Below, in pieces: positions 1 to 29,656 of a stretch of DNA of 64,000 nt. The notes under the pieces were generated by a model. It did not search any database, had not been told where the DNA came from, and saw only the letters and a program-made list of their open reading frames with translations. The first letter of the stretch is position 1, and every line of letters begins with the position of its first letter. Position numbers and translations under genes: made by a program. Source of the stretch: Hallerella porci (GTDB lineage: Bacteria > Fibrobacterota > Fibrobacteria > Fibrobacterales > Fibrobacteraceae); assembly GCF_003148885.1 (NCBI RefSeq), contig NZ_QGHD01000001.1, positions 124,001 through 188,000 of the forward strand. Direction: 5' to 3'.

Positions 1-524
1 CGTTGATTTGCGGAAAGCGTTTGCACGATTTTAACTGCGGCATTAAATTGTATCGCAGTTCTGTCGTTCGCTTCATCAATCTCTACGGCGATTTTCATCG
101 CTTTATTCCGGTGATGGCGAAGTGGCAGGGCGCGCGGATTACCGAAATGCCGGTTGCGCATCGCGCCCGCATTCACGGTTCTTCTAAATACGGCGTTTCG
201 CGTCTCGTCTCGGGATTTCTCGATCTCTTAACGCTTTTATTCTTAAATCGTTTTGCGACAAAACCGCTGCATTTCTTCGGACTTTTCGGACTCATTTTCC
301 TCTTGTTCGGCGGTGGCGTTTTCGGTTACTTCGGACTCGAATGGATTCAAACGGGAGCGTTGCATTTGCGTCCGCTCATCGTTGTCGGAGGCTTCTCGCT
401 TTTGATGGGCGTGCAACTTTTCTCGCTCGGATTTTTAGCGGAACTTTTTAATCGCAATAAAAAGCAACGTTATCCGATTGCAGAAACGGTCCGCGGCAAT
501 ATCGATGAGGAGGGATCGGTATGA
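1..524 (+). CDS. Polyprenyl-phosphate glycosyltransferase, GtrB/ArnC-like (5' truncated by window edge)
   Basis: Only the C-terminal part is in the window, because the frame is open through base 1. Visible are the end of a family-2 glycosyltransferase catalytic domain (the DFNCGIKLYR segment and the HRARIHGSSKYG segment typical of GtrB/DPM-type enzymes) and then two hydrophobic helices (about residues 90-112 and 122-147 of the visible part). Such enzymes load a sugar from a nucleotide donor onto undecaprenyl phosphate at the inner membrane. The stop overlaps the next glycosyltransferase by 4 bases, so the two are translationally coupled. The exact sugar cannot be read from the sequence. Confidence 0.85.
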   Translation, partial: LICGKRLHDFNCGIKLYRSSVVRFINLYGDFHRFIPVMAKWQGARITEMPVAHRARIHGSSKYGVSRLVSGFLDLLTLLFLNRFATKPLHFFGLFGLIFLLFGGGVFGYFGLEWIQTGALHLRPLIVVGGFSLLMGVQLFSLGFLAELFNRNKKQRYPIAETVRGNIDEEGSV

Positions 525-1234
525 GTTATCCCAAAAGTTTGGTGATTATTCCCACGTATAATGAAAAAGACAATATCTCGCTCATTATTCCAGCGGTGCT
601 TTCACAAGATCCGTGCTTAGAAGTTCTCGTCGTTGATGACGGATCCCCCGATGGAACGGGCGACATCGTCGAATCGATGATGAAAGAAAATGCCAAAGTG
701 CATTTGCTGCGTCGCCCCGGAAAAATGGGACTCGGTTCGGCTTACGTCACCGGATTTAAGTGGGCGCTAGAAAAAGACTTTGAACGCGTCTTCGAAATGG
801 ACGCCGACTTTAGTCACAATCCCGAAGATTTGCCGCGCTTTTTAGCCGCAGCCGAAGATGCCGATCTCGTTCTCGGCAGCCGTTACAACGAAAAGAAACT
901 CGGCGTTGTCAACTGGGATTGGAAACGTCTTTTGCTCAGTTACTTTGCGAACCTTTATACGCGAATCGTCACAGGGCTTCCCGTCAAAGATGCGACCGGC
1001 GGCTTCAAATGTTTCCGGCGTTCTGCGCTCGAAGCGCTTGATCTTTCGGGGATGAAAAGCGACGGTTATTGCTTTCAAATCGAAACGACTTTTAAAATTT
1101 GGAAAAAAGGTTTGCGGGTCAAAGAAATTCCGATTGTCTTTACGGATAGAATCCGCGGCGTGTCCAAGATGAGCGGGGGAATTATTTCCGAAGCGTTTTT
1201 CTTGGTTTTAAAACTGCGCTTTAAGCGTTCGTAA
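521..1234 (+). CDS. Dolichol/polyprenol-phosphate mannosyltransferase-like GT2
   Basis: A 237-aa soluble family-2 glycosyltransferase resembling DPM1 and bacterial polyprenol monophosphomannose synthases. The N-terminus has the GT-A nucleotide-sugar fold start (VIIPTYNEKDNI), VDDGSPDGTGD near residue 40, and a DADFSH metal-binding segment near residue 92. ATGGFKCFRR and the Arg-rich FTDRIRGVSKMS segment are also typical. There are no membrane helices, unlike its upstream neighbour. It lies in a glycosyltransferase operon, overlapping the gene before it by 4 bases and 9 bases before the next, so it probably supplies a lipid-linked sugar donor for surface glycan or protein glycosylation. Confidence 0.88.
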   Translation: MSYPKSLVIIPTYNEKDNISLIIPAVLSQDPCLEVLVVDDGSPDGTGDIVESMMKENAKVHLLRRPGKMGLGSAYVTGFKWALEKDFERVFEMDADFSHNPEDLPRFLAAAEDADLVLGSRYNEKKLGVVNWDWKRLLLSYFANLYTRIVTGLPVKDATGGFKCFRRSALEALDLSGMKSDGYCFQIETTFKIWKKGLRVKEIPIVFTDRIRGVSKMSGGIISEAFFLVLKLRFKRS

Positions 1235-1243
1235 AGGAGCCGA

Positions 1244-2782
1244 ATGACTGCGCCGTATTCTTGTTCTGTCATTATCGTCGCTTACAATTCCCGCGACTAT
1301 ATTCCGGCTTGTTTGGCTTCGGTTTCCGATGCACTCAAAAACATCGATTCCGAAATTATCGTTGTCGATAATGGTTCGCCGATTCCAATTCTTCCAGAAC
1401 AGAAAAATGCATTTCCGCATGTGAAATGGATTGACAGCGCAGAAAATTTAGGCTTCGGCAAAGGCTGCAATCTCGCGGCAAAAAGCGCAACCAAAGAAGT
1501 TCTCTTCTTTGTAAATCCCGACACTGTCGTTTCGCGCGGAACTTTTGAACGCACTCTTTCTTACATGGCGTCTAAGCCCGATGCCGGGGCAGTCGGCTGT
1601 AAAATTTTAAATGGCGATGGAACATTGCAGTGGGCGTGCCGCCGTTCTTTCCCGTCGCCGTTTGCTGCGATTTGCAAAACGATTGGACTTTCTGCTTTAT
1701 TTCCAAAAAGCAAAATTTTTGCGTCGTATAATATGACGTATTTGGATCCGGATGAAGAAACTGCGGTCGATGCGGTGAGCGGATCTTTTCTCGGCGTCAA
1801 GCGCGAAACCTTTGACAAGTTACACGGATTTGACGAAGACTTTTTCATGTACGGTGAAGACTTGGATATTTGCCTGCGGATAAAAAAGTTGGGCTTTAAC
1901 AATTATTATTATCCGGGCACGAGCATTCTCCATTTCAAAGGTCAAAGCAGTAAAACGCGGCGATTCCGCACTTTCGTCGAATTTTACATGGCGATGCTCA
2001 TCTTTGCAAAGAAGCATCACAATTACCATTTGCCGACATTTATCATCGCGATTGGAATTTTCTTTGCAGCGATCGTCGGCGTTTTTTCGAGACTCGTTCC
2101 GCAGTGGTGGAAAATGCTCGTCGATATTCTCGTCGCCGTTTTGTGCGGAGCGGTCTATTCTTGCTTTGCACCGATTTCTCTTCATCAAGTTGCAGCGCTT
2201 GCGCTCTTTACTTGGATGCCGATGGCGATAGCGGGCGATTACGTTTCCCCAAGACTCGAAGGCTTTCGATTATTCAAATTCTTATTGCCCGCAGCAGCGG
2301 TATCGCTCGTCGCAGAAATTTTTGCTTTGCGCGCCGATTGGACTTTAATTTATCCCGCGATTGCGATTGCTTTTGGCTGTGTATTTTGGCGAAGGCTTCT
2401 TTTTTGGCTCGGTTATTTTTACCAAATTTTTTCGGGCAAAGCAAAGCGTTCCATTTTACTCGGCGGGACGACGGATTCGATTGCGTGCTGGTTTGACCGC
2501 TATCATTTAAAACCGGGATTAAATATTTTAGGCTGCGTCACGAATCATCCCGAGTGTGTGACCGAAGAAAATCGCGAACATCTTCTCGGCGGAATGGAAC
2601 AGTTGGCGGCGATTTGCAAAAGGACTGGTTCTCGGGAATTGCTCGTGCTTTCGGATGCGAATGGATTCCGCGAACAATTCGATGCGGCGCAGATAAAATC
2701 TCTCGGACTTTGTCCGAAACTGCTCATCGGAGCAGATAATAATACAAATTACGCTGTAGTGGACTTGAATTATTTTTATTGA
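1244..2782 (+). CDS. GT2 glycosyltransferase with membrane segment and C-terminal nucleotide-binding-like domain
   Basis: 512 aa. Residues 5-250 are a rhamnosyltransferase-like GT2 domain (VIIVAYNSRDY, VVDNGSP, ENLGFGKGCN, VNPDT, then the acceptor-side GFDEDFFMYGEDLDICLR). Residues about 265-400 hold several hydrophobic helices. The last 110 residues start with KRSILLGGTTDSIACW and look like a Rossmann/CoA-binding-type domain such as the one at the N-terminus of polyprenyl-phosphate sugar transferases. The first domain is a confident family call; the C-terminal assignment is inference from pattern. The gene sits in the same operon as the two preceding glycosyltransferases. Substrates are unknown. 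Confidence 0.82.
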   Translation: MTAPYSCSVIIVAYNSRDYIPACLASVSDALKNIDSEIIVVDNGSPIPILPEQKNAFPHVKWIDSAENLGFGKGCNLAAKSATKEVLFFVNPDTVVSRGTFERTLSYMASKPDAGAVGCKILNGDGTLQWACRRSFPSPFAAICKTIGLSALFPKSKIFASYNMTYLDPDEETAVDAVSGSFLGVKRETFDKLHGFDEDFFMYGEDLDICLRIKKLGFNNYYYPGTSILHFKGQSSKTRRFRTFVEFYMAMLIFAKKHHNYHLPTFIIAIGIFFAAIVGVFSRLVPQWWKMLVDILVAVLCGAVYSCFAPISLHQVAALALFTWMPMAIAGDYVSPRLEGFRLFKFLLPAAAVSLVAEIFALRADWTLIYPAIAIAFGCVFWRRLLFWLGYFYQIFSGKAKRSILLGGTTDSIACWFDRYHLKPGLNILGCVTNHPECVTEENREHLLGGMEQLAAICKRTGSRELLVLSDANGFREQFDAAQIKSLGLCPKLLIGADNNTNYAVVDLNYFY

Positions 2783-2834: not shown

Positions 2835-3083
2835 ATGGATTCTGAAATGCTTTCGATTTTATGCACTCCCGATACCCGCAAGCCTCTTCGCGAAGCTTCG
2901 GAATCGGAGATTTCTCGTGTGAACGCAGAAATTTCTCAAGGAAAGCTGAAAACAGTTGGCGGAACCCTCCTTTCTGAACCGCTTGAAGATGCGCTTGTTT
3001 CCGAAGATGGAACAAAACTTTATCCGGTGAAAAACGGAATTCCTGTTCTTTTGACCGACGAAGCAATCGCCTTGTCGTTTTAG
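2835..3083 (+). CDS. Trm112-family small protein
   Basis: 82 aa. The layout MLSILCTPDTRKPL near the N-terminus and YPVKNGIPVLLTDEA at the C-terminus is that of the Trm112/YcaR (UPF0434) family. In eukaryotes and archaea members activate methyltransferases; bacterial single-domain forms are poorly defined. Only one Cys remains of the zinc-binding set seen in some relatives. A good ribosome-binding site (aaaaaaggtg) precedes the ATG. The gene is 52 bases after the glycosyltransferase and 9 bases before the repeat protein, so it is likely co-transcribed. Confidence 0.75.
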   Translation: MDSEMLSILCTPDTRKPLREASESEISRVNAEISQGKLKTVGGTLLSEPLEDALVSEDGTKLYPVKNGIPVLLTDEAIALSF

Positions 3084-3092
3084 GGGTAAGAT

Positions 3093-5768
3093 ATGGCAGC
3101 AACGGTAGAATCACTCCGCAAGGCAATCGGCAAAAAGAAACAATCGATGGCTTTCGCTTGGCTCGCAGACCTTTTGTGCGACCGCGGCGAATTGGACGAA
3201 GCAAAAGAATGCGTTACATCGGGACTTGAAGCTTTCCCCGATAGCGTGGAAGGTCATTTGGTTCTTTCTAAAATTCTCGTCGCAAAAGAAGAATGGGATA
3301 GCGCCATTCAAGCTTGCGAATTTGTCCTGCTCCGCAATTCGTGTTGTCTGTCGGCTTTACGCCGAATGGGCGACGCTTATGCTGCAAAGGGCGACGCTCA
3401 GAATAGCAAACATTATTACTTGCTCCTCCGTAATTTGGATCCACTCGACCCGTTCTGGACGAGCGAAAATGCTCCGAACTTATTCGAAGAAACGCCGACG
3501 TCGGAATCTGCCGAACCGCTTTCTGCTGCAGAAGCGACCGCTGCCGATGTTTCTCTCGATGAATTGCTGAAAGATCAACCGCTCGATTTGCCGGATGAAC
3601 CGCTTATCGAAAAGAGCCCCGAAACGATTGCTCCGCAAGCGGCTGCGCCGGTAGAATCAGCTCCTGCTCCCGCAGAAACGACTCCTGCAGAAAAAACTGC
3701 ACCGCAAGCTTCGGAATCTTCGACGGATGAAGATGATCCGTTCGCCTCTTTCGCCACTCTCGCTTCGGCAGAGGATGAAAACGATGGCGAAGTTTCGTTC
3801 AACGATTTGGAAAGCAGCTTGAACAGTGCCATCGCGGGCTTTGCGCCGACGAATACGGACAAAGATGTTTTCCCTGCCGAAGAAATCGAAGGCAATGATA
3901 TTTCGACTGCGCTCTCTGGCATTTTTGGTTCGACAGAAGTAAGCGAACCCGAGCCTGTAGCGAAAGAAGAACCGGCAGAAACTTTGAACATTCCGCCTGC
4001 CGAAGATAAACCGCAAACCCTTTCGGATGCGTTTGACGATATCTTTGGCGAAGATGAATTGCCCGAAGAATTTGTTCCGTCGAAGGCTGCAGAAAAACCA
4101 GCGGAAACTTCGCTCGATCTCCCTACAGAAGATTTGAAGCTTGACGAAACTTCTGCGCCTGCAGAAAATGTCGCGCCAATTTCGGAAGAAAAATCCGAAG
4201 CAAAATCGAAAGCGGAAAATTCCGCAGACGATGTTTTGAATTTGGATGAACCGGCGAGTGCTCAAGAATTGGACAAGTCGGTGACGAATTCGTTTGATAG
4301 TTTATTTGGCAGCGATTTGGACGATCTCCCTACAGAAGATTTGAAGCTTGACGAGGCGTCCGCGCCCGCAGAAAATGCCGCGCCAATTTCGGAAGAAAAA
4401 TCCGAAGCAAAATCGAAAGCGGAAAATTCCGCAGACGATGTTTTGAATTTGGATGAACCGGCGAGTGCTCAAGAATTGGACAAGTCGGTGACGAATTCGT
4501 TTGATAGTTTATTTGGCAGCGATTTGGACGATCTCCCTACAGAAGATTTGAAGCTTGACGAGGCGTCCGCGCCCGCAGAAAATGCCGCGCCAATTTCGGA
4601 AGAAAAATCCGAAGCAAAATCGAAAGCGGAAAATTCCGCAGACGATGTTTTGAATTTGGATGAACCGGCGAGTGCTCAAGAATTGGACAAGTCGGTGACG
4701 AATTCATTTGACAGTTTATTCGGCAGCGATTCGGACGATTTCCCGACAGAAGATTTGAAGCTTGACGAGGCGTCCGCGCCCGCAGAAAATGCCGCGCCAA
4801 TTTCGGAAGAAAAACCGGAAGAAAAATCCGAAGCAAAATCGGAAGCGGAAAATTCCGCAGACGATGTTTTGAATTTGGATGAACCGGCGAGTGCTCAAGA
4901 ATTGGACAAGTCGGTGACGAATTCATTTGACAGTTTATTCGGCAGCGATTCGGACGATCTCCCGACGGAAGATTTGAAGCTTGACGAAACTTCTGCGCCC
5001 GCAGAAAATGTCGCGCCAATTTCGGAAGAAAAACCGGAAGAAAAATCGGAAGCGGAAAATTCCGCAGACGATGTTTTGAATTTGGATGAACCGGCGAGTG
5101 CTCAAGAATTGAACAAGTCGGTGACGAATTCGTTTGACAGTTTATTCGGCAGCGATTCGGACGATCTCCCGACGGAAGATTTGAAGCTTGACGAAACTTC
5201 TGCGCCCGCAGAAAATGTCGCGCCAATTTCGGAAGAAAAACCGGAAGAAAAATCGGAAGCGGAAAATTCCGCAGATGATGTTTTGAATTTGGATGAACCG
5301 GCGAGTGCTCAAGAATTGAACAAGTCGGTGACGAATTCGTTTGACAGTTTATTCGGCAGCGACTCGGACGATTTCCCGACAGAATATTTGAAGTTTAACG
5401 AAACTTCTGCGCCCGCGGAAAATGCCGTGCCAATTTCGAAAGAAAAACCGGAAGAAAAATCCGAAGCAAAAGCGGAACCAGAAAATTCCGCAGACGACGT
5501 TTTGAATTTGGATGAACCGGCTAGTGCTCAAGAATTAAACAAGTCGGTGACGAATTCGTTTGACAGTTTATTCGGCAGCGATTCGGACGATCTCCCGGAA
5601 GACCCGACGACGAGCACGCGGACTTTAGCCGAAATTTATTTTGAACAAGGCGTTTACGACGAAGCAGAAAAAATTTATCGGGATTTGATTCGCAAAGAAC
5701 CCGAAGATGAATCTCTGCGGAGTCGTCTTGCCGAAATTGAAAAAATTCGCAACGAAAAAAATCCATAA
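3093..5768 (+). CDS. Acidic repeat protein with TPR ends (possible scaffold linked to pilT)
   Basis: 891 aa in three parts. Residues 1-120 form tetratricopeptide-type helices. Residues about 130-830 are a long, very acidic, Pro/Ala/Glu-rich, probably disordered region. The last 50 residues return to a TPR (LAEIYFEQGVYDEAEKIYRDLI). The middle contains seven near-identical units of 69 or 73 aa, each ending in a TNSFDSLFGSD motif; looser versions (ALSGIFGS, AFDDIFGED) occur before the array. No signal peptide or membrane segment is seen, so it is likely cytoplasmic. It is 18 bases upstream of pilT, so a role in assembling or positioning the pilus motor is a reasonable inference. It has no recognised named family beyond the TPRs. 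Confidence 0.8.
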   Translation: MAATVESLRKAIGKKKQSMAFAWLADLLCDRGELDEAKECVTSGLEAFPDSVEGHLVLSKILVAKEEWDSAIQACEFVLLRNSCCLSALRRMGDAYAAKGDAQNSKHYYLLLRNLDPLDPFWTSENAPNLFEETPTSESAEPLSAAEATAADVSLDELLKDQPLDLPDEPLIEKSPETIAPQAAAPVESAPAPAETTPAEKTAPQASESSTDEDDPFASFATLASAEDENDGEVSFNDLESSLNSAIAGFAPTNTDKDVFPAEEIEGNDISTALSGIFGSTEVSEPEPVAKEEPAETLNIPPAEDKPQTLSDAFDDIFGEDELPEEFVPSKAAEKPAETSLDLPTEDLKLDETSAPAENVAPISEEKSEAKSKAENSADDVLNLDEPASAQELDKSVTNSFDSLFGSDLDDLPTEDLKLDEASAPAENAAPISEEKSEAKSKAENSADDVLNLDEPASAQELDKSVTNSFDSLFGSDLDDLPTEDLKLDEASAPAENAAPISEEKSEAKSKAENSADDVLNLDEPASAQELDKSVTNSFDSLFGSDSDDFPTEDLKLDEASAPAENAAPISEEKPEEKSEAKSEAENSADDVLNLDEPASAQELDKSVTNSFDSLFGSDSDDLPTEDLKLDETSAPAENVAPISEEKPEEKSEAENSADDVLNLDEPASAQELNKSVTNSFDSLFGSDSDDLPTEDLKLDETSAPAENVAPISEEKPEEKSEAENSADDVLNLDEPASAQELNKSVTNSFDSLFGSDSDDFPTEYLKFNETSAPAENAVPISKEKPEEKSEAKAEPENSADDVLNLDEPASAQELNKSVTNSFDSLFGSDSDDLPEDPTTSTRTLAEIYFEQGVYDEAEKIYRDLIRKEPEDESLRSRLAEIEKIRNEKNP
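4119..5591 (+). repeat. Seven tandem 207/219-bp in-frame coding repeats
   Basis: Unit starts at 4119, 4326, 4533, 4740, 4959, 5166 and 5373, with the array ending at 5591. Five units are 207 bp and two are 219 bp, the extra 12 bp adding four residues of a Lys-Pro-Glu-Glu type. All periods are multiples of three, so copy-number change keeps the frame. Units 2 and 3 are almost identical at DNA level, suggesting recent amplification; the last unit is the most diverged. Confidence 0.95.
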
Positions 5769-29446: not shown

Positions 29447-29656
29447 CATTTTACTCACCAAATACGTCCATGCACTTTTGAATGATGTCATTTTACTCAC
29501 CAAATGGGGCATTGCACTTTTGAATGGTGCCGTTTTACTCACCAAATGTGTCATTGCACTTTTGAAAGATGCCATTTTGCCCGCCAAATGTGTCATTGCA
29601 CTTTTGAAAGATGCCATTTTACCCGCAAAATGCGTCCTTGCAATTCTGCGATTAAA
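29447..29656. repeat. Five tandem 42-bp repeats
   Basis: Units begin at 29447, 29489, 29531, 29573 and 29615. Each has CATTTTACTCACCAAATG followed by a CATTGCACTTTTGAA core. The final unit decays at its 3' end. The period is 14 codons and both strands stay open over most of the array, but no start or ribosome-binding site supports a gene. There are no unique spacers, so it is not CRISPR. Confidence 0.92.

Follow-up and report, generated by a model that had tools for sequence, protein, structure and literature searches.

The window, i.e., the whole stretch of 64,000 nt of Hallerella porci DNA analysed here, carries near its beginning a row of genes on one strand in the order glycosyltransferase, glycosyltransferase, Trm112-like, scaffold, pilT, which is the gene order of the family (Table 1). 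The fourth gene encodes a repetitive protein that we have termed SCAF. The earlier note on this DNA had placed the gene beside pilT, and 18 nt indeed separate the SCAF stop codon from the pilT start.

Table 1. Features of the SCAF locus (positions in the window)
Feature	Position	Strand	Basis or remark
Two glycosyltransferase-2 genes	521..2782	+	Conserved upstream neighbours in the family
Trm112-like small protein	2835..3083	+	Conserved upstream neighbour; Pfam match just below cut-off
Scaffold ORF (SCAF)	3093..5768	+	ATG 3093, TAA 5766-5768; 891 aa
N-terminal TPR domain (3 TPRs)	3150..3467	+	Residues 20-125; Pfam TPR, AlphaFold2, Foldseek, profile A2
Linker, acidic and largely disordered (nine motif copies)	3468..5600	+	About 710 residues; composition, pLDDT
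Motif copy 1, ISTALSGIFG (degenerate)	3900..3929	+	
Motif copy 2, LSDAFDDIFGEDELPEE	4020..4070	+	Close to the form found in most Fibrobacter
Tandem array, seven 207/219-nt units, each ending TNSFDSLFGSD	4115..5597	+	Tandem Repeats Finder, motif positions
Motif VTNSFDSLFGSD, array unit 1	4281..4316	+	
Motif starts, array units 2-7	4488, 4695, 4914, 5121, 5328, 5547	+	
C-terminal single TPR and capping helix	5604..5759	+	Residues 838-889; Pfam TPR_14, AlphaFold2
pilT-family retraction ATPase gene, second PilT copy of the genome	5787..6887	+	TIGR01420, 454.6 bits (cut-off 319.1)

The adjoining pilT is one of two genes in the genome that score above the TIGR01420 cut-off; the other copy, on another contig, scores higher and lies beside a gene which we take, by eye, to resemble pilC. 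Among solved structures, the neighbour ATPase is related to PilT (5fl3; E 1.4e-104) and PilU (9n32; E 2.7e-87). Two further, weaker relatives of pilus ATPases lie side by side on contig C3 of the same genome (L153, 8429-11019). Fibrobacteres genomes are described as having two or three PilTs among their pilus genes (PMC4704652), whereas the S85 genome paper speaks of a pilus gene set that is not complete (PMC3079729).

The anatomy of SCAF is that of a disordered acidic chain held between TPR ends, as the earlier note had it, and composition, Pfam and AlphaFold2 bear this out. Over its full length, the protein scores 46.4 bits with the TPR_14 model (cut-off 23.5), with the best stretch at residues 843-882, and a score above this curated cut-off places SCAF amongst the TPR proteins, which also make up the Foldseek list of PDB matches to the predicted model. 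In the linker (residues 126-831), 189 Asp and Glu stand against 42 Lys and Arg, for a net charge of -147. The AlphaFold2 model of the full-length protein, built on an alignment of 10 rows, has a pTM of 0.28 with the linker at low confidence: pLDDT falls below 50 for 563 of the 891 residues, the 10-residue blocks of the N-terminal TPR domain from residue 21 are predicted at 85-96, and those of the C-terminal TPR near 90. The highest Kyte-Doolittle mean over 19 residues is 1.21 in the window protein, and none of 58 orthologues reaches 1.6. Since no segment is hydrophobic enough to span a membrane, SCAF is most likely cytoplasmic, here and in these 58 sequences. A match to DUF6673 (Pfam, 47.7 bits for the whole protein), in which no single stretch passed alone, was read as a chance match to the repeats. 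Phage records yielded no match to the SCAF protein.

Tandem Repeats Finder reports a unit of 207 nt in 7.0 copies with 93% matches. The seven units of 69 or 73 aa that the earlier note had counted are all found, with the last residue of TNSFDSLFGSD at 408, 477, 546, 619, 688, 757 and 830 (spacing of 69, 69, 73, 69, 69 and 73 aa), and the degenerate copies that it had seen upstream number two, ISTALSGIFGS and LSDAFDDIFGED, both older than the array units. The core pattern [FL]xx[LI]F occurs nine times in SCAF; in 300 composition-preserving shuffles it averaged 0.48 occurrences and never exceeded 3. At each motif, AlphaFold2 predicts a short helix with low to moderate confidence (residues 269-278 and 310-318 for upstream copies 1 and 2; 393-404, 458-473, 528-542, 604-615, 669-685, 738-753 and 813-827 in the array). 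Amongst the seven units, the last 14 codons hold four synonymous and no amino-acid variable sites and the first 25 codons six and eight, respectively, a contrast that is not significant alone (Fisher P 0.09). The case for function rests on the relatives, because the copies in the window by themselves might have arisen by recent duplication. Scans for promoters and terminators picked up matches within the repeats and nothing decisive. Elsewhere in the window (29447-29642), a 42-nt tandem repeat of 4.7 copies lies between two genes; it is translatable on both strands and looks non-coding.

In relatives, the motif takes the form V/I-x-x-x-F/L-D-x-L/I/M-F-G, usually followed by acidic residues within the family, and occurs in 2-14 copies per chain. 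With a strict pattern, [VILMF]x3[FL]x2[LIM]F, and the expectation taken from shuffled linkers, we counted 394 copies in 58 family proteins where 4.5 were expected; none of the 58 is without it, and 56 exceed all of 200 shuffles. The family consensus by position reads V-D-S-A-F-D-S-L/I-F-G-E-D-D-D; outside the family it reads S-G-x-D-V-E-D-R/Q-L-D-x-L/M-F-G. There, the strict pattern occurs 76 times in 20 proteins (1.3 expected), 13 of which exceed all shuffles and five of which have no copy. A relaxed pattern that allows LL endings, picked after inspection of those sequences, is present twice or more in 19 of the 20, with 17 above all of 100 shuffles; given how this pattern was picked, patterns slid by one residue are the fairer control, and these find at most three copies each. 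In 14 diverged proteins of the same family, the strict pattern occurs 11 times (eight proteins without any) and the relaxed pattern at least three times in each of 12, mostly in the LL form (LTGDMDSLL); the remaining two are cut by contig ends. The earlier note had proposed conservation in relatives as a check on its reading, and the motif is conserved both in the 58 family proteins and in the 20 from outside, where its spacing is likewise retained in other classes.

The sequences of the units vary between species with the motif retained, and since the units differ while the motif is kept, this suggests that the arrays expanded separately in different species. In six genomes searched with a motif profile (A1), the SCAF gene was the only match at E < 0.05; other matches were weak (E 0.08 and worse), and inspection of four such regions turned up no convincing further motif protein. 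A second short repeat, (L)FEKS, occurs three times or more in 33 of the 58 family proteins (e.g., L108 and L061) and is absent from the window SCAF. Moreover, several orthologues outside the genus of the window (e.g., L074 and L112) have a DFLMSGDSDDE-like block before the C-terminal TPR, which is missing from the window SCAF.

In a set of one genome per species, a whole-protein search found a match in 100 of 101 genomes of the family. Profile A2, built on the N-terminal TPR domain, matched 98 of 101 genomes of the order (E 1e-5) and, at 1e-8, 154 of 167 genomes of the phylum Fibrobacterota, in 36 of 40 genera. Because A2 can also pick up distant TPR proteins, orthology is judged by the motif, the neighbouring genes and the C-terminal TPR, as seen in the loci fetched rather than in all 154 genomes. 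Of the 13 genomes negative for A2, 11 encode the protein in a form that is diverged (G101, G102, G133, G134, G164 and G165, with both TPR ends and with PilT immediately downstream), partial (G110, the C-terminal end of a diverged protein at a contig edge, PilT downstream) or reduced (G160-G163). The other two, G150 and G022, are both 71% complete; in G150, the contig with PilT stops where the gene would be.

The link to pilT extends well beyond the window. At the 52 of 60 family loci where the gap could be measured at both ends, it ranges from -14 to +22 nt, and the overlap of the two genes implies that they are expressed together. pilT is adjacent downstream in 11 of 15 diverged loci of the same family; in the remaining four, a contig end interrupts the locus. 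Among 20 loci from outside the family, a same-strand pilT follows downstream in 13 and contig ends cut four; two (L182 and L186) have the motif, with no pilT found within about 5 kb downstream, and the last (L175) belongs to G166, a genome with no PilT match. A gene that sometimes stands between the two is presumably, from its resemblance by eye, an Xaa-Pro peptidase or a biotin carboxyl carrier. Linkage elsewhere, the other check that the earlier note had named, is thus found with few exceptions, pilT remaining nearby in most other classes; by itself it does not single out PilT, because the glycosyltransferase and Trm112 genes are conserved neighbours as well. A long PilT reading frame in L187 and L188 proved to be an upstream reading-frame artefact and not a motif tail. 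In one genome of the genus (G004, L054 6799-7923; same locus as L043), PilT is only 81% identical to that of the window (four other members of the genus reach 91-94%) and is more like the PilTs of other genera; exchange or mis-assembly of the MAG is possible.

The loss of the motif coincides with the loss of pilus motors. Four genomes of genus g15 contain no T2SSE ATPase over the Pfam cut-off, neither PilB nor PilT, and no PilT match. At their locus (L236-L239), the Trm112 gene stands beside a gene for a protein with both TPR ends and a linker of 55-68 aa, in which none of three patterns finds a motif; in genus g14 of the same family (L189-L191), the linkers measure 751-797 aa and hold 5-6 motifs, with PilT downstream. 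In another class, G166 (L175) has five T2SSE ATPases over the cut-off and no PilT match at 1e-40, and its linker of 556 aa is devoid of the motif save for one loose match to the widest pattern. Motif and motor are absent together in these two lineages only. The co-occurrence supports a role of the scaffold with the pilus, which the earlier note had suggested, and G166 suggests that the motor linked to the motif is PilT rather than PilB; in g15, any pilus protein could be the partner, because all pilus ATPases are gone there. There are two counter-cases: the gene beside PilT in G133 lacks any motif that we could recognise, and the only form in G134 is a variant, VDDEIKKLL, with unchanged spacing and in three copies. 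The TPR ends probably have another attachment or use of their own, because they outlive the pilus in g15.

The multivalent scaffold proposed in the earlier note is, as anatomy, well supported, and we propose, with a probability of about 0.5, that it docks the retraction motor PilT of the type IV pilus and thereby controls retraction. Two small TPR domains would cap a long acidic disordered chain presenting 2-14 short amphipathic helices, each of which may serve as a low-affinity docking site for one common surface. PilT encoded by the next gene is the best candidate for the partner because of the linkage, the implied shared expression and the joint loss. PilT works as a hexamer, so the several motifs of one chain could retain a single hexamer or bring a number of them together; one chain would then hold or cluster several PilT subunits or hexamers. 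The TPR ends could tether the chain elsewhere, to other pilus parts, the envelope or itself, and tethering and clustering together would set when and where pili retract. We tentatively extend the proposal to a dedicated docking strip throughout the phylum, whose FxxLF-type helices might bind the PilT hexamer as a reservoir or cluster of motors and which would be discarded once the motor is lost. A docking model, predicted from a read-through that joins the scaffold end (last motif plus C-terminal TPR) to PilT, on an alignment with PilT rows only, gave a motif pLDDT of about 32 and a whole-model pTM of 0.38, a quality too low to judge docking.

The motifs might instead dock another pilus component or a pole factor (PilB, PilM or an unknown protein), in which case the link to pilT would reflect shared regulation only. 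The loss of the motif in g15, where all T2SSE-family ATPases are gone, fits the loss of any pilus protein, and in Myxococcus xanthus it is PilB, not PilT, whose polar localisation requires the TPR protein SgmX (PMC7519303). We consider this alternative unlikely: G166 keeps T2SSE-family ATPases yet has neither PilT nor the motif, and the SCAF gene adjoins pilT, often overlapping it, and does not lie beside the PilB-type ATPase gene of the window genome. Rather improbable is self-assembly, in which the motifs would bind the TPR ends of their own chain or each other and form a network or droplet with pilus proteins as clients. SCAF, with TPRs at both ends and many sticker-like helices between acidic spacers, is laid out as one would expect of such an assembler; however, g15 retains both TPR ends without any motif, so that the ends have a separate use.

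A recent and neutral origin of the repeats, with the linker as a mere flexible spacer, would agree with the close similarity of the seven units in the window (93% matches) and with the variation of the unit sequence between species, but we regard it as very improbable, as the residues and the spacing of the motif persist throughout the phylum while the linkers differ; the amino-acid variable sites in the window units (none in the last 14 codons against eight in the first 25) point the same way, at a P of 0.09 that is not significant alone. Descent of SCAF from a polar landmark of the HubP/FimV type, with which HubP's acidic repeats and C-terminal TPR (PMC12918733) would agree, is hardly credible: none of the 58 sequences has a transmembrane segment, no LysM or FimV model in Pfam or NCBIfam matches up to E = 1, and an N-terminal TPR domain stands in place of the LysM and transmembrane part. 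A search for FimV_core had no match in the whole window genome, nor did the same search match any control genome.

The recruitment of pilus retraction motors is known for few bacteria. Fibrobacter is a main cellulose degrader of herbivore guts; it is reported to hold cellulose by pili (PMC4704652, PMC4668043). The loss of a motif-bearing linker together with the motor, the folded ends being kept, makes the function of a disordered region readable from comparative genomics, and a motif both conserved and defined, for which a partner is predicted, is directly testable by peptide binding. The conserved, repeated helix has the appearance of a hitherto undescribed docking strip for the pilus machinery; in the literature within our search, outside which most subscription papers lay, we found no description of the SCAF protein.

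Parts of this arrangement recall known systems. The neighbour of the scaffold belongs to the PilT/PilU family of retraction ATPases (TIGR01420 over the cut-off), but as a second copy. The FxxLF and LxxLL docking helices of eukaryotic coactivators and nuclear receptors are likewise short, amphipathic and present in multiple copies in disordered chains. Their pattern, hydrophobic-x-x-hydrophobic-hydrophobic, is that of the SCAF motif, a resemblance across kingdoms and partners without implied homology. SgmX of M. xanthus is a TPR protein that positions the pilus motor ATPase PilB (PMC7519303); it acts via MglA and PilB, and its likeness to SCAF is one of description.

HubP of Vibrio and Shewanella and FimV of Pseudomonas are described as having a long, acidic, unstructured cytoplasmic region with a C-terminal TPR, with imperfect acidic repeats in HubP whose number and sequence differ from one species to another, and a role of FimV in type IV pili (PMC12918733). 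SCAF shares the acidic unstructured region, the repeats (as in HubP) and the C-terminal TPR, the latter recognised by Pfam and AlphaFold2 and with no FimV model of NCBIfam matching. SCAF differs in having no LysM match and no transmembrane segment, with an N-terminal TPR domain instead, and in its short helical motif of fixed spacing, conserved over the phylum. We do not count SCAF as a member of the HubP/FimV group; it perhaps works like the cytoplasmic half of HubP.
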